A DNA stretch of 64,000 nt from Candidatus Kapaibacterium sp. (GTDB taxonomy: Bacteria > Bacteroidota > Ignavibacteria > Kapaibacteriales > HRBIN21): assembly GCA_938084565.1 (NCBI GenBank), contig CALKEU010000011.1:1-64000 (forward strand), given 5' to 3'. Below, piece by piece: positions 53,117 to 58,707 of this stretch; position 1 is the first letter of the stretch; each line of letters starts with the position of its first letter. Position numbers and translations under genes: made by a program. Under the pieces are notes generated by a model. That model was not told the DNA's origin. It searched no databases and saw only the letters and a program-made list of their open reading frames with translations.

Positions 53117-53158
53117 AGGCGAGCCATACTGTCGGATAGCCGTACAGTGCCGGCACGG

Positions 53159-53166
53159 TATTTTTG
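53159..53166 (+). promoter_or_regulatory. TAnnTTTG -7 element for the HAF-repeat gene
   Basis: TATTTTTG, 25 nt before the ATG at 53192. The predicted transcript would start downstream of an alternative ATG at 53147, which supports the 53192 start. Confidence 0.6.
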
Positions 53167-53191
53167 TTTCTCAGCCTCCGAGAGCGCCGCA

Positions 53192-54505
53192 ATGCGGTGG
53201 GCAGGATGGTTTGGGATACTACTCCAGAGCTGCTGCGGTATTCTCCTCGGGCAGCAGCTTCTCTGGCTTGGCCGCCTTCCCGGCGGTGGCAGTAGTGAAG
53301 CTGTAGCCGTCTCTGACAGCGGGACTGTCGTCGTTGGCAGGGCCGAAAATGCGCTCTACGTCTGGCGCGCTGTGCGTTGGACAGCTGCAGGCACCATTGA
53401 CGCTCTGAGCCCCCTCAGCGGGGGTGCCAGCAAGGCAATGGCTCTCTCCCCCGATGGGTCAGTCATTGTCGGTGCAGCGCAGGATAGTATCGGCCGCTGG
53501 CGCGCCGTCCGATGGGACCGTGACGGCCGTATCGAGGAAATTGGGACACTGGGAGGACCAGCCAGCGAAGCCACAGGAATTGCGCCTTCCGGGAGCATCA
53601 TCGGGTGGGCAGCGACGGCGAGCCTGACCAGGCATGCCTTCCTTTGGAATCCGAGCACGGGAATGCGTGACTTGGGCACCCTCGGCGGGGCCGAAAGTAC
53701 GGCTCTGGCTATTGCCCGTGATAGCCTCGTCGTGGTTGGCTGGGCAGAGAATGCAGACCGCCAAGCGCGCGCTTTCCGATGGTCTCCATCAGCGGGAATG
53801 CAGGATCTGGGTACCCTTGGCGGTGCCCGCAGCGAAGCTTACGCCGTCTCAGCGGACGGCTCGGTTGTGGTCGGCCGGGCAGAAAATTCTGACCGCCTCT
53901 GGCGCGCTTTCCGCTGGAGTGCACACACGGGGATGCAGGAGCTGGGCACCCTCGGGGGGAGAGAAAGTGGAGCGCTGGCCCTTTCAGCCGATGGTTCCAT
54001 CGTCGTCGGCTGGGCAATGACACCAAGCGGGGATTGGCGTGCCTTCCGCTGGCATGCACAGACGGGAATGCAAGATCTCAACCTCCTCTACGCCCGAGCC
54101 GTTGGACGCTCCCTCCTCTATGTGGCCCGGGGTATATCGCCGGACGGCCGGTATATTGTCGGCTACGGTATCAACGCCGCCACAGGACGCCAGGAAGCCT
54201 ATCTGCTGGATACCCACGCCGAGGGCACTGATCTGGCCTTTGACACCCCCTTGCCGTTGAGCCTCTCGGTTGAGCCACACCCTGTGTTCGACCAGGCCTT
54301 TGTGCGGTACACGCTCCCAGCACCGGCGCTGGTGCGCCTGTTCATCACCGATCTGCTCGGACGTACCACAGTTGCCTTGCCCGATTGCTGGCATGCAGAG
54401 GGGACCTATAGGCAGCCGCTCCCCCAGCTGCCTTCGGGGTTGTACACACTCGTTCTCCACACCGAGGCTTCTACAGCCACCGTCCGGTTCGTCGTCCTGC
54501 GATAA
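53192..54505 (+). CDS. Secreted HAF-repeat protein with T9SS sorting tail
   Basis: A 437-residue protein with a signal peptide (MRWAGWFGILLQSCCGILLG). At least five repeats of about 46-48 residues follow, each with a DLGTLGG-type motif, a SADGSVVVGRAEN turn and an AFRW strand, matching the HAF extracellular repeat family and suggesting a beta-propeller. The last 80 residues (LFITDLLGRTTVALPD, LPSGLYTLVLHTE) form a T9SS type-A sorting domain. The ATG at 53192 follows a promoter motif. It ends 13 bp from the convergent TonB receptor. Confidence 0.85.
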   Translation: MRWAGWFGILLQSCCGILLGQQLLWLGRLPGGGSSEAVAVSDSGTVVVGRAENALYVWRAVRWTAAGTIDALSPLSGGASKAMALSPDGSVIVGAAQDSIGRWRAVRWDRDGRIEEIGTLGGPASEATGIAPSGSIIGWAATASLTRHAFLWNPSTGMRDLGTLGGAESTALAIARDSLVVVGWAENADRQARAFRWSPSAGMQDLGTLGGARSEAYAVSADGSVVVGRAENSDRLWRAFRWSAHTGMQELGTLGGRESGALALSADGSIVVGWAMTPSGDWRAFRWHAQTGMQDLNLLYARAVGRSLLYVARGISPDGRYIVGYGINAATGRQEAYLLDTHAEGTDLAFDTPLPLSLSVEPHPVFDQAFVRYTLPAPALVRLFITDLLGRTTVALPDCWHAEGTYRQPLPQLPSGLYTLVLHTEASTATVRFVVLR

Positions 54506-54518
54506 AACGACACCCCGG

Positions 54519-56723
54519 CTACGGCGCTAGCGCCTCCCCGACGCGCCAGCGGAGCCCGAGGTAGAATAGGCGTGCCTCGAGCGGTCCCCATATAAGCGAG
54601 GCATCGAAATAGGGCCCGCGCGGATTGCGCGCATCGAGAATGGCGGCTCGCTGCAGCGCGTTGGTGGCATTCTCCACCCCAACGTAGAGTTCCCATGTAC
54701 CGAAGCGACGGGTCAACTGTCCATTGAGCCGAAACACGGCCGGGAATCGCTCACCCCAGCGTAGGCTATCGGGATTGTCCGCTGTCGAGGGCAGTCGGCC
54801 CCCACTGTTCCAGACAAGCGTGGCATCCAGCTGCCACTGCCGCTGGGCCGTCGCATAGCTGAGTGTAGCCAGAAGCCGGTGTGGGGAAATCAGTGGACGT
54901 CGCTGCCAACGACCCCCTGTCGGCGCCCACGTATCCCACCAACGGTAAGCGAGACGGAGCTCAACGTCGGCCAGCTTCCCCTCAGCTTGTACCAGGACAG
55001 AGTTTGCGTAAGCTCGTCCGACATCGCGCAGCAGCAAAAGCCGTGCACTGGCATCGAGGTCGGGCACCACTTGATGGCGGAATTCTGTCCGAAAGGCCTC
55101 AAGGTCTAGCGTCCAGAGCCCTGCTACCGGCACCAACAGCGTCAGCGAGCCGCCATAGTTCCATCCCCATTCGGGTCCAATGGGTCCGAAGAGGACACGG
55201 CGCGCACTCAGGAAGAAGGGCAAGTTGTCGGCCACGACGTTGGGCACTCGCATGCCGCGCCCAGCCGAGAGGCGGAGGGTCAACAGCGGAACGGGCTGCC
55301 ACTTCAGATACGCCCGTGGGGTCAGGAAAGCCCCATAGAGGTTGTGCCAATCTCCGCGCAGCCCCGTCACAAGCGTCACCGCCGAGAGCGGCTGGAGTGT
55401 GAGCTCGACGAACGCTCCTGGCACAATCTCGCGCCGCCTCCAGGCCGTATCGGCCAGGTGCTCATCGGCCAGGTGCTCATCGTAGAAATCCGTAAGGAGA
55501 TCGACGCCGTAGCGCACCTGTGCTCGCGCCCACTCGCTCATCCCGAACATCTTGAGCGCCCCGAACGCCTCATCCCCCCTGTACTGCCGCAGGCCCAGCT
55601 CTGCGCCGAGCTGTTGCAGGACGAGCGTGCCCCGGAGACCGATTTGCGTGACGTCGCTGAGCCTCTGTGTTCCCTTTGCAATGAGCTCGCCGCGGTGTTC
55701 GCGGATCTCTATCCTATAAGCACGCTCGGGCTCAATGCTCGACAGGGTCCCGCCGTGTCGTTCCTGCACCACCCCCTTGGCTAGTATGTGCAGCTCGAAA
55801 GTTTCAGGACCCCCGAGATGGGTCACCCAGGCCATAGCATTGAGTTGCCGCCGGAGTGGCATATCGATGAACCCATCCCCGTTGGCATCTCGCTCCAGCC
55901 CCGTCCAACTCCCATGCAGAAAGCCCATACCATACCAATGCGGGCCCAGCAGACGAGCAGAGGTCAGATTGAGCTCAAACCGACCAGCCGTACTGGCATA
56001 CGAGTTTGCAAAGAAGGGGACATCACTGTATGGCTTGCGATAGCTGACAGCGATTGTTCCGGTCAGCCCCTCATAGCCATCGACCACTGAGGCGGCTCCT
56101 TTCGAGATTGCGATGGACTCTAGAAACGGGCCCGGGATGTACTCCCACTGGACTGGCAGTGCCAGTCCCCGCATGGTCGGTACAGCTTCCACGAGGGTCT
56201 GCACATACACACCACTGAGGCCGAGCATCTGAATCTGCCGCGTCCCCACTAAGGGATCCGAAAAGCTTGCCTCAACCGTCGGGCTCTTCTCGAAGGATTC
56301 CGCTAAGGAGCAGCAGGCCGACTGTTCGAGCTGGCGTGCCGAGATAGCTTCCGTCTTGACTGGAGCAGCAGTGATGGTAGGTGCTGCAGCCTCCACCCGC
56401 ACTTCAGACAGCGCATAGACAGAGACAAGCACGAAGGTGAGCGTATCGACCCCTTGTGCTGGCAGTACAGTATCGAGACTTCGGTAGCCTACCGCACTCA
56501 CACGGAGGGTATCGACATTCGGCGGGCGCACTAGTCTGAACTGCCCATCGGCTGCTGTCACCGTCCCCACAGAACTCCCCAACCACTGCAGCCGTGCCCC
56601 GGGCAGGGGACGTTGTGTGCCATCGGGGTCTTCTCCGTAGACGACTCCATGCAGGAGCGGCTGTCCCCGCACAAGCACGGCAGCACACAGGAACACACAG
56701 CTATACAGCATGCGGACGAACAT
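54519..56723 (-). CDS. TonB-dependent outer-membrane receptor with Cys-Cys plug motif
   Basis: The 734-residue protein has a signal peptide (to about 21), a carboxypeptidase-regulatory-like domain (about 22-100; GVVYGEDPDGTQRPLPGARL), a plug and a 22-strand-type barrel. The plug contains LEQSACCSLAESFEKSPTVE with adjacent Cys at 137-138, followed by TRQIQMLGLSGVYVQTLVE, a pattern I associate with Bacteroidota receptors paired with small Cys-rich proteins. Metal, perhaps copper, uptake is an inference. The ATG at 56723 has a strong SD (GGAGG). That SD lies in the 3' arm of a long hairpin starting in the end of the Cys-rich gene. Confidence 0.9.
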   Translation of the reverse strand: MFVRMLYSCVFLCAAVLVRGQPLLHGVVYGEDPDGTQRPLPGARLQWLGSSVGTVTAADGQFRLVRPPNVDTLRVSAVGYRSLDTVLPAQGVDTLTFVLVSVYALSEVRVEAAAPTITAAPVKTEAISARQLEQSACCSLAESFEKSPTVEASFSDPLVGTRQIQMLGLSGVYVQTLVEAVPTMRGLALPVQWEYIPGPFLESIAISKGAASVVDGYEGLTGTIAVSYRKPYSDVPFFANSYASTAGRFELNLTSARLLGPHWYGMGFLHGSWTGLERDANGDGFIDMPLRRQLNAMAWVTHLGGPETFELHILAKGVVQERHGGTLSSIEPERAYRIEIREHRGELIAKGTQRLSDVTQIGLRGTLVLQQLGAELGLRQYRGDEAFGALKMFGMSEWARAQVRYGVDLLTDFYDEHLADEHLADTAWRRREIVPGAFVELTLQPLSAVTLVTGLRGDWHNLYGAFLTPRAYLKWQPVPLLTLRLSAGRGMRVPNVVADNLPFFLSARRVLFGPIGPEWGWNYGGSLTLLVPVAGLWTLDLEAFRTEFRHQVVPDLDASARLLLLRDVGRAYANSVLVQAEGKLADVELRLAYRWWDTWAPTGGRWQRRPLISPHRLLATLSYATAQRQWQLDATLVWNSGGRLPSTADNPDSLRWGERFPAVFRLNGQLTRRFGTWELYVGVENATNALQRAAILDARNPRGPYFDASLIWGPLEARLFYLGLRWRVGEALAP
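55451..55480. repeat. Tandem 15-bp duplication within the TonB receptor gene
   Basis: CGGCCAGGTGCTCAT occurs twice in direct tandem, duplicating the pentapeptide DEHLA in a predicted loop. The reading frame is kept. Confidence 0.9.
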
Positions 56724-56724
56724 G

Positions 56725-56815
56725 GTTGACTTCCTCCGACAGTGGCACATACGCACAGAGCACGCACAAGCCTCCCTAGCCTCCACCCTGTGCCGAGAAT
56801 GTCGGAGGAATCAAC
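56725..56815 (-). promoter_or_regulatory. Long hairpin coupling the Cys-rich ORF stop to the receptor ribosome site
   Basis: On the minus strand GTTGA-TTCCTCCGACA (56815-56800) pairs with TGTCGGAGGAA-g-TCAAC (56741-56725): 16 base pairs with one bulged G. An inner stem GGCACA (56794-56789) with TGTGCC (56749-56744) can extend it. The 5' arm contains the TGA stop of the Cys-rich ORF. The 3' arm contains the receptor SD, one base before ATG. No U-tract follows, so it is not a simple terminator. A ribosome finishing the leader ORF would cover the 5' arm and expose the SD. Confidence 0.8.
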
Positions 56816-57239
56816 AGCGTAAGCAACACAGCTCAGGCAAGATCAGCGCACCGGCCTTCCTCCCCCTCCCTTCACGAGCATGCAGAGGAGGGATCGGAAG
56901 CAGCCTCCACATGGTCATCCCCTCTACTCGCCCGATCAGCAAAACACCGGGCAGCTGCACGAGAGAGAGAATCCCTTGGAAAGGCTGGTGGGAACATTCC
57001 TCGAGGCACTGGCCCTGCACGCCACATGCTTGCTTGCCTCCTTCCATCTCCTGGCATACCTCCGCCCCTTCCACTTCCATCGGGCAGCAGCTTGCCTCAG
57101 ACGCTGCACCCTGCAGGACCTGGGGCGAAAGGGAAGGAGGACAACACAGACACAGCGCTACGGGCGCTGCCTCGACAGAGGCAGTGTAGAGCATGCCTAT
57201 GAACAGGACAAGAATCCGCCGCTGCCGGATGTAGCGCAT
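56811..57239 (-). CDS. Cysteine-rich small exported protein, possible sensor/leader for the receptor
   Basis: A 142-residue protein with a signal-like start (RRILVLFIGMLYTASVEAA) and 12 Cys at 30, 32, 33, 51, 52, 62, 72, 78, 82, 138, 139 and 142, including three CC pairs and a terminal CCLRC. A PPL motif lies at 117-119. The layout resembles small HYC_CC_PP or DUF2946-like proteins found before TonB receptors. The function is unknown; it could bind or sense soft metals such as Cu(I). Its stop codon is built into the hairpin controlling the receptor start. Confidence 0.72.
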   Translation of the reverse strand: MRYIRQRRILVLFIGMLYTASVEAAPVALCLCCPPSLSPQVLQGAASEASCCPMEVEGAEVCQEMEGGKQACGVQGQCLEECSHQPFQGILSLVQLPGVLLIGRVEGMTMWRLLPIPPLHAREGRGRKAGALILPELCCLRC

Positions 57240-57312
57240 GGCAGCATAGAAGACGGCTGTCCCTGCATAATCATGTCGACTGTGCCGCGCGCTGTGGCAG
57301 TGGGAGATTCTG

Positions 57313-57336
57313 TAATTTTGCTGACCGGCTGGTCAG
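57313..57336 (+). promoter_or_regulatory. TAnnTTTG promoter with palindromic operator
   Basis: TAATTTTG (57313-57320) is followed at once by CTGACC-ggct-GGTCAG (57321-57336), a perfect 6-bp-arm dyad, and then a further GTCAG. The dyad covers the predicted transcription start of the PNPOx-MenA gene, a classic repressor position; the half-sites resemble TetR-family operators. No regulator gene is adjacent. Confidence 0.6.
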
Positions 57337-57357
57337 TCAGATATCTCCTATCCCCCT

Positions 57358-58707
57358 ATGGACACGCATGCTCTACGCGCTGCACAGCAGATTTTCAGCG
57401 AGAACAAGACTCTGACCCTCGTCACCCATGGCTCGCAGGGTGTGTGGGCAGGAAAGGTGTACTTTGGAGAGCAGGACGGGTATCTCTACATAGCCCTTGA
57501 GCAAGGCCGGAACTACCGCAACGTGCTGGAGAATCCGCATGTCTTCTTCGTCATCGAGCGGGGTGTGCCGGATCGCTTCGTGCAGGGGGAAGGCATTGCC
57601 GAACGTATTGGCCCCATTGAGGAGTGCCCGGAGCGGAGCATCATTTTTCGGAAGGCGCTCGAACTGGTGCTGTTTGCGAAGCTCATTCCGGGAGTGACGC
57701 TCTTCCGGATCCGACCCACGCGGCTTTTCATCTCGGATTTTACCCATGAGTGGAAGCCACGGGCAGAAGTCGAGGTCACCGAAGAGGTCTTGGAGTACTT
57801 CCGTACCCATCGCCCCAGCTCGTCGCGGCTTTCAGTCTTCTGGAAGGCAATTCGTCCATTTGCCTTCCCTGCTACGCTAGCTCCGGTACTGATTGGCTCT
57901 CTCACTGCCCCGATAGTCGATTGGGGGCGGCTGTTACTAGTGCTGTTGGGCACGCTCCTGGCTCACAGCGGAGTCAATGTTATCAGCGATTGGATGGATT
58001 GGCGCCGTGGTGCCGATACCTGGAAGGTACTTGGCTCAAGCCGCGTCCTCGTCGATGGGTTGCTCGATCCCCGAACCCATCTCCGCTTTGGAATTACGTT
58101 GATGGGACTTGCAGCGCTCATTGGTGTGTGGCTCATTCAGTTGAGCGGACCCGCAGTCTGGTACTTCATGGCAGCTGGGGCTGCCGTAGGGATTTTCTAC
58201 ACCGTTCCCCCGGTTGGACTTAAATACCGAGCCCTGGGCGATCTTGCAGTCTTCTTGGCTTTCGGCCCCTTGATGGCGGCAGGGGCCTACTACGTTCAGA
58301 CCTCGCAGCTGGCATGGCTCCCCGTGTGGCTCTCCATCCCCATTGGGCTGCTGACGATTGCTATCTTGCACGGAAACAACTATCGTGACATTGCCGAGGA
58401 CCGAGCCGCCGGGTACCACACGGTGGCAAGCCTCCTGGGGCCCAGAGGCTCGGCGATCTACTACACTGCGCTGTTAGCGGGAGCTTACGTATCGACGGTT
58501 CTCTTCGTCATCCTCCAATGGCTGCCTCTATGGTCGCTCGGGGTTGTGCTGACGCTCCCTCTGGCATGGCGGAATGTAAGCGTGGCGTTCAACCACGCTC
58601 GGGTTGCCTTTAGCTTCTTGGATTTGCTCACGGCCCAGCTCCACTTGGCTTTCTCGCTGCTCATTGTGGCAGGACTTCTCCTTGAGCGCTTTGTTCCACT
58701 CCCGTAG
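57358..58707 (+). CDS. Fusion: PNPOx-like flavin split barrel + MenA-type UbiA prenyltransferase
   Basis: A 449-residue protein. Residues 1-135 match the pyridoxamine-phosphate-oxidase-like split barrel (LTLVTHGSQGVWAGKVYF, GYLYIALEQGRNYRNVLENP, FRIRPTRLFISDF). Residues 160-449 form a UbiA prenyltransferase with about nine helices and both Asp motifs: NVISDWMDWRRGAD (N207, D211, D214, D220) and NNYRDIAEDRAAG (D344, D348). The second motif is close to MenA, which prenylates dihydroxynaphthoate for menaquinone. No stop, frameshift or start signal separates the halves. The barrel could bind FMN, F420 or heme; its role is unknown. Confidence 0.88.
   Translation: MDTHALRAAQQIFSENKTLTLVTHGSQGVWAGKVYFGEQDGYLYIALEQGRNYRNVLENPHVFFVIERGVPDRFVQGEGIAERIGPIEECPERSIIFRKALELVLFAKLIPGVTLFRIRPTRLFISDFTHEWKPRAEVEVTEEVLEYFRTHRPSSSRLSVFWKAIRPFAFPATLAPVLIGSLTAPIVDWGRLLLVLLGTLLAHSGVNVISDWMDWRRGADTWKVLGSSRVLVDGLLDPRTHLRFGITLMGLAALIGVWLIQLSGPAVWYFMAAGAAVGIFYTVPPVGLKYRALGDLAVFLAFGPLMAAGAYYVQTSQLAWLPVWLSIPIGLLTIAILHGNNYRDIAEDRAAGYHTVASLLGPRGSAIYYTALLAGAYVSTVLFVILQWLPLWSLGVVLTLPLAWRNVSVAFNHARVAFSFLDLLTAQLHLAFSLLIVAGLLLERFVPLP

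Follow-up and report, generated by a model that had tools for sequence, protein, structure and literature searches.

We consider it probable that a short Cys-rich open reading frame (ORF) upstream of a TonB-dependent receptor gene in a Candidatus Kapaibacteria genome is a regulatory leader, whose stop codon forms part of a hairpin that closes the receptor start, whose termination would open that hairpin, and whose nascent chain would sense a metal, with copper as the likeliest one. The locus lies in a 64,000-nucleotide stretch of DNA, hereafter the window, from a genome of 1.87 Mb belonging to the order Candidatus Kapaibacteria (class Ignavibacteria, Bacteroidota). The leader and the receptor genes are separated by a gap of 87 nt, and a MenA-type prenyltransferase gene (57358, plus strand) is located divergently upstream of the leader, so that the leader and the receptor resemble a two-gene unit. 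The features of the locus are given below.

57239-56811, minus strand: leader ORF, 142 amino acids with 12 Cys, a signal-peptide-like N-terminus and the C-terminus LILPELCCLRC-stop
56994-57089, minus strand: cluster of distal leader Cys (C51-C82), lying some 60-91 residues from the stop and corresponding to the CC region of the family
56814-56831, minus strand: last six leader codons (LCCLRC), carrying the order-wide C-terminal motif
56813-56811, minus strand: leader stop codon TGA, three of three bases within the stem
56815-56800, minus strand: hairpin 5' arm GTTGATTCCTCCGACA, covering the final leader codon and the stop
56794-56789, minus strand: GGCACA, 5' half of an optional inner stem, from duplex prediction
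56749-56744, minus strand: TGTGCC, 3' half of the optional inner stem, from duplex prediction
56741-56725, minus strand: hairpin 3' arm TGTCGGAGGAAGTCAAC with the bulged G56730, comprising the receptor Shine-Dalgarno (SD) sequence and the spacer to -2
56737-56733, minus strand: receptor SD GGAGG, all bases paired in the stem
54519-56723, minus strand: TonB-dependent receptor with ATG at 56723-56721, a CarboxypepD_reg-like N-terminus and the plug motif SACCSLAESFE

The prenyltransferase (57358-58707, plus strand) is MenA-like and carries a weakly PNPOx-like N-terminal extension (21.4 bits, cut-off 28.1), which makes it an unusual fusion, and a 449-residue homologue also adjoins the locus in the sister genome L031. 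The convergent gene at 53147-54505 (plus strand), which contains HAF-like repeats and a C-terminal sorting-like tail, also has a homologue at the same place, downstream of the receptor, in L031.

Direct reading of the minus strand revealed that the 5' arm GTTGATTCCTCCGACA pairs with TGTCGGAGGAA(G)TCAAC over 16 bp with G56730 bulged, which agrees base for base with the hairpin described in the first-pass annotation, and the stem indeed holds the TGA and the receptor SD and stops one base before the ATG. As for the 6-bp inner stem proposed at the same time, the complementary GGCACA and TGTGCC are present, but the minimum free energy (MFE) structure favours a different inner fold. When the 101-nt stretch (56720-56820) was folded with RNAfold, as that annotation had recommended, the stem was recovered at -42.3 kcal/mol with a z score of -2.39, and five of 200 shuffles were equally good. 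When a 171-nt stretch was folded instead, it was no more stable than its shuffles (z -0.08), with the stem still present in both the MFE and the centroid structures. A scan of the window using the same geometry detected an equal or stronger duplex at 86 of 15,946 positions (p ~0.005, or ~0.5%). Thus, the evidence for the hairpin from this GC-rich sequence alone is modest; the single-sequence fold was dropped as proof because ~0.5% of random window positions are as strong and the 171-nt fold is ordinary, and the signal becomes decisive solely once homologues are compared. Rfam gave chance-level matches only within 56400-57500, and a known riboswitch or leader element of that collection was therefore rejected. 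We also observed that a G-rich segment inside the leader (56855-56875, minus strand; GGGAGGGGGAGGAAGG) duplicates the GGAGGAA of the receptor and can pair with the hairpin 5' arm; for the stretch GGGGGAGGAAGG, this pairing reaches -21.3 kcal/mol compared with -25.4 kcal/mol for the native arms, so a competing structure is possible.

We compared homologous loci, most of them from draft or metagenome assemblies and with start codons picked by a signal-peptide heuristic. Within the order, 100 of 123 genomes carry the receptor at E<=1e-80, so the family is close to fixed, and most loci with sufficient upstream sequence have a short secreted-type ORF rich in Cys before the orthologous receptor. Pairing between the stop region and the start region exceeded that of dinucleotide shuffles at p<0.05 in 44 of 90 loci and at p<=0.01 in 28 of 90, where about 4.5 and 1 were expected, and these counts refer to mutually related loci and not to independent events. 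The mean pairing energy of the 90 leader-receptor loci was -11.44 kcal/mol with native arms and -6.19 kcal/mol with swapped arms (permutation z -19.6). Good pairing is lost when arms are swapped between loci. The arm sequences change between genera yet stay complementary, as seen in the matched pairs of L002 (CTCCTCCAACCAT/ATGGTTGGAGGAG), L005 (TTCATCTGTAA/TTACAGATGAA) and L017 (GCTGCAATGGCTCGATA/TATCGAACCATTGTAGC).

The position of the pairing is also well defined. When a window was slid along the leader side, the signal peaked at the stop codon (mean z -1.93, 46% of loci below -2) against a background of about -0.1, and it was at background before the stop region and again at +24 past the stop. 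On the receptor side, the signal of 107 loci was strongest 12 nt before the start codon, with a mean z of -2.53 and 59% of loci below -2, and pairing was absent at +8 or further. Leader-receptor junctions picked by a crude rule showed a mean z of -1.43 with 38% below -2, whereas 114 ordinary co-directional junctions picked by that rule from the window and 80 loci showed a mean z of -0.38 with 12% below -2; the slight stop-to-start pairing of these controls counts against our reading. No significant hairpin was found at about half of the tested loci, including L014 of the window genus (genome G002). Both leader and receptor are present at L014, and a shifted pairing, CTCTTGCTTG/CAAGGCAGAG, is possible there by eye.

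The first-pass annotation had named beforehand the lack of compensatory base changes among homologues as an outcome that would speak against the hairpin, and compensatory pairs were found in two clades. In one Kapabacterial genus, represented by six sequences, double changes were seen at 6 of 14 pairs, and three of 500 shuffles reached the covariation score. Among 19 Flavobacterium-type sequences, 5 of 13 pairs were double-changed, and none of 500 shuffles reached the score. Because we placed the register manually on the basis of predicted duplexes, a slid-register control is less informative than the shuffles. At the sequence level, the hairpin, its position and its covariation are real.

The arrangement extends well beyond this order, so it is not the independent version in a single FCB bacterium that had been imagined, but one that occurs across Bacteroidota. 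The NCBIfam profile NF047658 (HYC_CC_PP) matched leaders in 117 of 395 sampled Bacteroidota genomes, and a stop-to-start hairpin was found at p<0.05 in 34 of 50 tested HYC_CC_PP loci. Downstream of the hairpin-positive loci, most genes encode either a receptor of this type or an RND pump of the CusA/CzcA type. In the Flavobacterium type, the stem starts right with the stop codon (TGATTTTAATGTT/AACATTAAAATCA); this stop is TGA in 22 of 30 loci compared with 3 of 19 nearby other ORFs, a small background. A HYC_CC_PP leader precedes a CusA/CzcA-type RND pump at L129, L133, L136, L139, L140 and L211-L215, which are mostly hairpin-positive, with arms such as TGATTTTTAAACAAT/ATTGTTTAATTATCA. In L034 (2787-6196), the receptor follows a HYC_CC_PP gene and an HMA gene in tandem, and the target of the leader could accordingly be a two-gene unit or, in the first place, the HMA gene.

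The receptor scored above the Pfam cut-offs for the TonB_dep_Rec barrel (PF00593, 68.1 bits) and the plug (PF07715, 28.8 bits), in line with its original assignment as a TonB receptor. Its plug contains ACC-x-L-x-ES-F-E (56318-56289, minus strand); all 14 aligned receptors keep its A, both C, L, E, S, F and E, and this motif is a candidate metal site. Naming the metal from solved structures was abandoned, as the closest sequence relatives are weak or partial matches and none is a copper receptor. The evidence for copper comes from gene neighbours: in the relatives, HMA proteins occur before the receptor, the leader is followed by CusA/CzcA-type pumps and in one case by an HMA-MauE gene, and L078 shows the order HMA-receptor-CopA, with a copper-translocating ATPase of 593.7 bits (cut-off 397). 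Because of these copper-type neighbours, we suggest that the metal of the receptor is probably copper. The metal assignment of the first-pass annotation thus gains a copper-type context by synteny, while the identity of the metal, its sensing by the leader and the direction of the response are, as before, what we infer. The literature yielded no expression, stalling or metal-response data for any member. At L063, L078, L084, L096, L097 and L108, there is no HYC leader immediately ahead of the receptor; instead, an HMA-domain-like protein is encoded 2-12 nt upstream. In addition, L231 (1429-1863; genome G011 of the same order) encodes a true DUF2946 leader, ending in DRAPPAFPALA, directly before a different TonB receptor, so that both leader types are present in the order.

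Here, we need to consider that the leader might respond to something other than copper, namely zinc or another metal, the redox state, or export stress as SecM does. A Cys-rich secreted-type leader with near-constant spacing, as described below, would be well suited to sense redox state or translocation, and no copper receptor is found among the solved structures closest in sequence to the receptor. However, the HMA proteins, the CopA-type ATPase and the CusA/CzcA-type pumps stand beside the receptor or the leader in the relatives, and CutF-like Cys leaders are mostly found at copper loci (PMC9973294), so we regard a non-copper signal as somewhat unlikely but worth serious attention.

Comparison of the leader proteins suggested that most relatives resemble the HYC_CC_PP family; the copy in the window genus has diverged past the model. 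With a membership cut-off of 28 bits for NF047658, the same-order leaders L004 and L027 scored 33.9 and 44.4 bits, and that of the relative G017 scored 43.1 bits; three further same-order leaders fell slightly under the cut-off (22.8-27.3 bits). The window leader gave no match at E<=1, and neither did the leader of L003 from the window genus match the profile. Leaders of this genus matched no family. The leader is therefore not the unrelated protein that it had first been taken for, since relatives of the same order match HYC_CC_PP. In its position before the receptor gene, its secreted-type Cys-rich nature and its conserved C-terminus, the window leader agrees with this family. Profile comparison of the window-genus leaders with the others by hhalign aligned the C-terminus alone (probability 89.8), and full-length homology by this route was not accepted. 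Membership in DUF2946 (PF11162) was also rejected: the profile had no match at E<=1 in the window leader and six relatives, nor any match anywhere in the genome of the window.

Two features of these leaders point to sensing by the nascent chain. First, the distance from the distal CC to the C-terminus is nearly constant in the family (median 72 residues, 10-90% range 70-82, SD 7.2), while the distance of the CC from the N-terminus varies about twice as much (SD 15.0). Taking ~30 residues in the ribosome and ~17 across the membrane, the figures used in PMC9973294, a spacing of ~72 would place the CC just outside the membrane once the ribosome reaches the stop. Second, conservation extends right up to the stop and is higher in the last 16 residues than in mid-leader, with values of 0.85 and 0.57 in the Flavobacterium types and 0.56 and 0.43 in the RND types. 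An order-wide C-terminal motif consists of Phe/Leu at -3, Arg at -2 and Leu/Ile/Cys at -1. Base pairing does not account for the C-terminal conservation, because the Arg codon of the window leader sits outside the stem. The conservation continues past the PP to the final codon. Many relatives carry PP at about -13, and the window leader has neither RAPP nor PP in its last 15 residues, its sole C-proximal PP being 25 residues from the end. It also lacks a CXXC or CxxxC about 45 residues before the C-terminal motif, the distal Cys lying 60-112 residues from the end. Based on the CC-to-stop spacing and the conservation up to the stop, we suggest that the leader is a nascent-chain sensor.

We modelled thermodynamically the accessibility of the start region (-22 to +3) with the ribosome at different positions on the leader. 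In hairpin-positive loci, the predicted unpaired fraction was 0.35 in free RNA and 0.52 with the ribosome at the leader stop, and it was 0.45 with the ribosome three codons before the stop and 0.35 at 5-6 codons or more. The initiation region of the window rose from 0.25 in free RNA to about 0.52-0.54 with the ribosome at the stop. The model thus supports the ribosome-position logic of the first-pass annotation, in which a terminating ribosome frees the receptor SD and an early stall leaves it paired: the start is predicted to be open at the stop and closed at five or more codons upstream. The GGAGGAA of the window was 0.10 unpaired in free RNA, and with the ribosome at the stop the SD core was 0.16 unpaired, mostly paired to other bases. 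As this core is predicted to stay paired, the switch in the window may be partial or may require the helicase activity of the ribosome. Judging from the whole profile, the start would be opened solely by a ribosome at the stop or close beside it, and not by a PP stall, which makes opening coupled to termination the best-supported model.

In the mechanism that we propose, the leader ORF would be a cis-acting regulatory uORF like CutF or SecM. With no ribosome near the leader end, the receptor start would be paired and the receptor poorly translated. A ribosome that terminates, or is held, at the leader stop or up to about three codons before it would cover the 5' arm and free the receptor start. 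The leader would be exported during its synthesis, with the distal Cys pair probably just outside the membrane at termination, and the conserved last residues would probably form an arrest or slow-termination signal whose strength is set by metal on the Cys region, so that a hold-up at the final codons is the likely regulated step. At loci with an import receptor, metal should lower expression, and at CusA-type efflux loci it should raise expression; since import and efflux genes share the hairpin, different members should have opposite response signs. As a wider proposal, which we rate slightly short of an even chance, HYC_CC_PP proteins and their diverged relatives would be Bacteroidota-wide metal-sensing nascent chains that act at termination, with the stop codon at the base of a hairpin whose other arm holds the start of a metal importer or exporter gene, with a ~72-residue ruler that lets the Cys site sample the periplasm during termination, and with opposite signs at TonB and CusA loci.

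A simpler possibility is plain translational coupling, in which the leader functions as a metal-binding protein of the periplasm, and the hairpin does no more than tie synthesis of the receptor to recent translation of the leader, without arrest or metal sensing. Normal termination would suffice for the hairpin geometry and the accessibility model, an own function is conceivable for a conserved secreted-type Cys-rich protein, and in some genomes a gap of just 2-18 nt couples the receptor tightly to an HMA metal-binding protein instead. On the contrary, final residues more conserved than the middle of the leader would be odd in a free protein and are expected of a nascent-chain sensor, a CC-to-stop distance kept near 72 beside a variable N-terminal part would be equally odd, and the window-genus leaders share little with the rest beyond the Cys and the C-terminus. 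We therefore consider plain coupling unlikely.

Another alternative is that the hairpin stays closed as long as the ribosome is arrested at the PP of the relatives, ~13 codons ahead of the stop, and opens when the released ribosome reaches the stop, so that arrest would mean receptor OFF. Many HYC_CC_PP leaders do carry PP at about -13, where a ribosome leaves the stem free, and CruR arrests at its PP (PMC12992588). It counts against our own reading that the window-genus leaders lack a C-terminal PP arrest motif. Nevertheless, the absence of PP near the end of the window leader speaks equally against a PP arrest there, the conserved residues run on beyond the PP to the last codon, and an unarrested ribosome spends little time at a stop, which leads us to doubt this alternative quite strongly. 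Lastly, it is very improbable that the inverted repeat is a DNA operator, a transcription terminator or a GC-rich repeat that arose by chance rather than an RNA switch: equally strong duplexes do occur in the window (86/15,946) and the 171-nt fold is unremarkable, but differing arms keep the pairing in many genera, its position is locked to the stop and start codons, the window shows no U-tract and the ATG comes after the 3' arm, the leader-to-receptor spacing ranges from ~45 to 170 nt among loci, which is unlike an operator, and Rfam offered no match.

The preferred reading, a stop-codon hairpin opened by termination of a metal-sensing leader, has close parallels in known systems. CutF is the nearest in mechanism, and CruR is the nearest in downstream gene. 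In CutF-cutO of Rhodobacter capsulatus, a stem-loop hides the downstream SD and its opening needs leader translation (PMC9973294). Both systems have a short secreted Cys leader before a metal gene, and a stem-loop masking the SD between leader and metal gene was found at the window locus as well. However, CutF is a DUF2946 protein, whereas the window leader and the tested relatives lie outside that model at E<=1; CutF has a CxxxC ~45 residues before its C-terminal motif, whereas ~72 residues separate the distal CC from the stop here; and here the stop codon is inside the stem, covariation is present, and the window genus lacks the PP. CutF-like proteins of Bacteroidota with a C-terminal PP have been counted earlier, with TonB-like genes as frequent neighbours (PMC9973294). 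Thus, many HYC_CC_PP members are probably already within the CutF-like list, and the existence of such leaders in Bacteroidota is not new.

CruR-bfrG/crtA of Bordetella pertussis, the parallel that the first-pass annotation had drawn, likewise has a Cys-containing secreted-type uORF before a copper-responsive TonB receptor (PMC9426467, PMC12914433), and the parallel stands for the downstream gene and gives way to CutF and SecM for the mechanism. CruR works by Rho-dependent termination, and its 162-bp intergenic region was judged incompatible with translational coupling (PMC9426467); arrest at its C-terminal RAPP was shown in vitro (PMC12992588), whereas the CXXC and RAPP motifs are missing here. 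Opposite response signs have already been seen between CutF and CruR. In SecM-secA, VemP and MifM, the stem-loop that hides the next start site opens when a ribosome is held up close to the end of a secreted leader (PMC9973294). These leaders, however, sense protein export and not metal, and the downstream genes encode export machinery. As modelled here, the residues conserved up to the stop, which is often TGA in the Flavobacterium types, suggest a hold-up at termination as in TnaC of E. coli. TnaC senses tryptophan and acts on Rho termination and not on a start-site hairpin. Finally, most of the compared leaders belong to HYC_CC_PP, which are small secreted-type proteins with HYC, CC and PP motifs, although the window leader itself falls outside the model.

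NF047658 is described as an uncharacterised protein family only, with no regulatory role or hairpin attached, and the papers searched in full text held none on this family, nor any on a Bacteroidota TonB receptor of this kind that is regulated by copper. As far as we found, the covarying stop-codon hairpin, its tie to HYC_CC_PP and the ~72-residue ruler are unreported. The same holds for the pair of RND and TonB targets with one hairpin type and for PP-less members like that of the window.

If our reading is true, a protein family that is widespread in a whole phylum and still uncharacterised would gain a function and an RNA element open to testing. Many Bacteroidota lack Shine-Dalgarno sequences. 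The reading would explain translation-level control of both metal uptake and metal efflux in Bacteroidota. Since the hairpin is predicted to open only with the ribosome within about three codons of the stop, PP arrest and stop-codon hold-up, which are usually merged, would become separable. Nascent-chain copper sensing, which so far comprises a few Proteobacteria, would then become a comparative system in which arms, spacing and C-terminal motifs can be followed.
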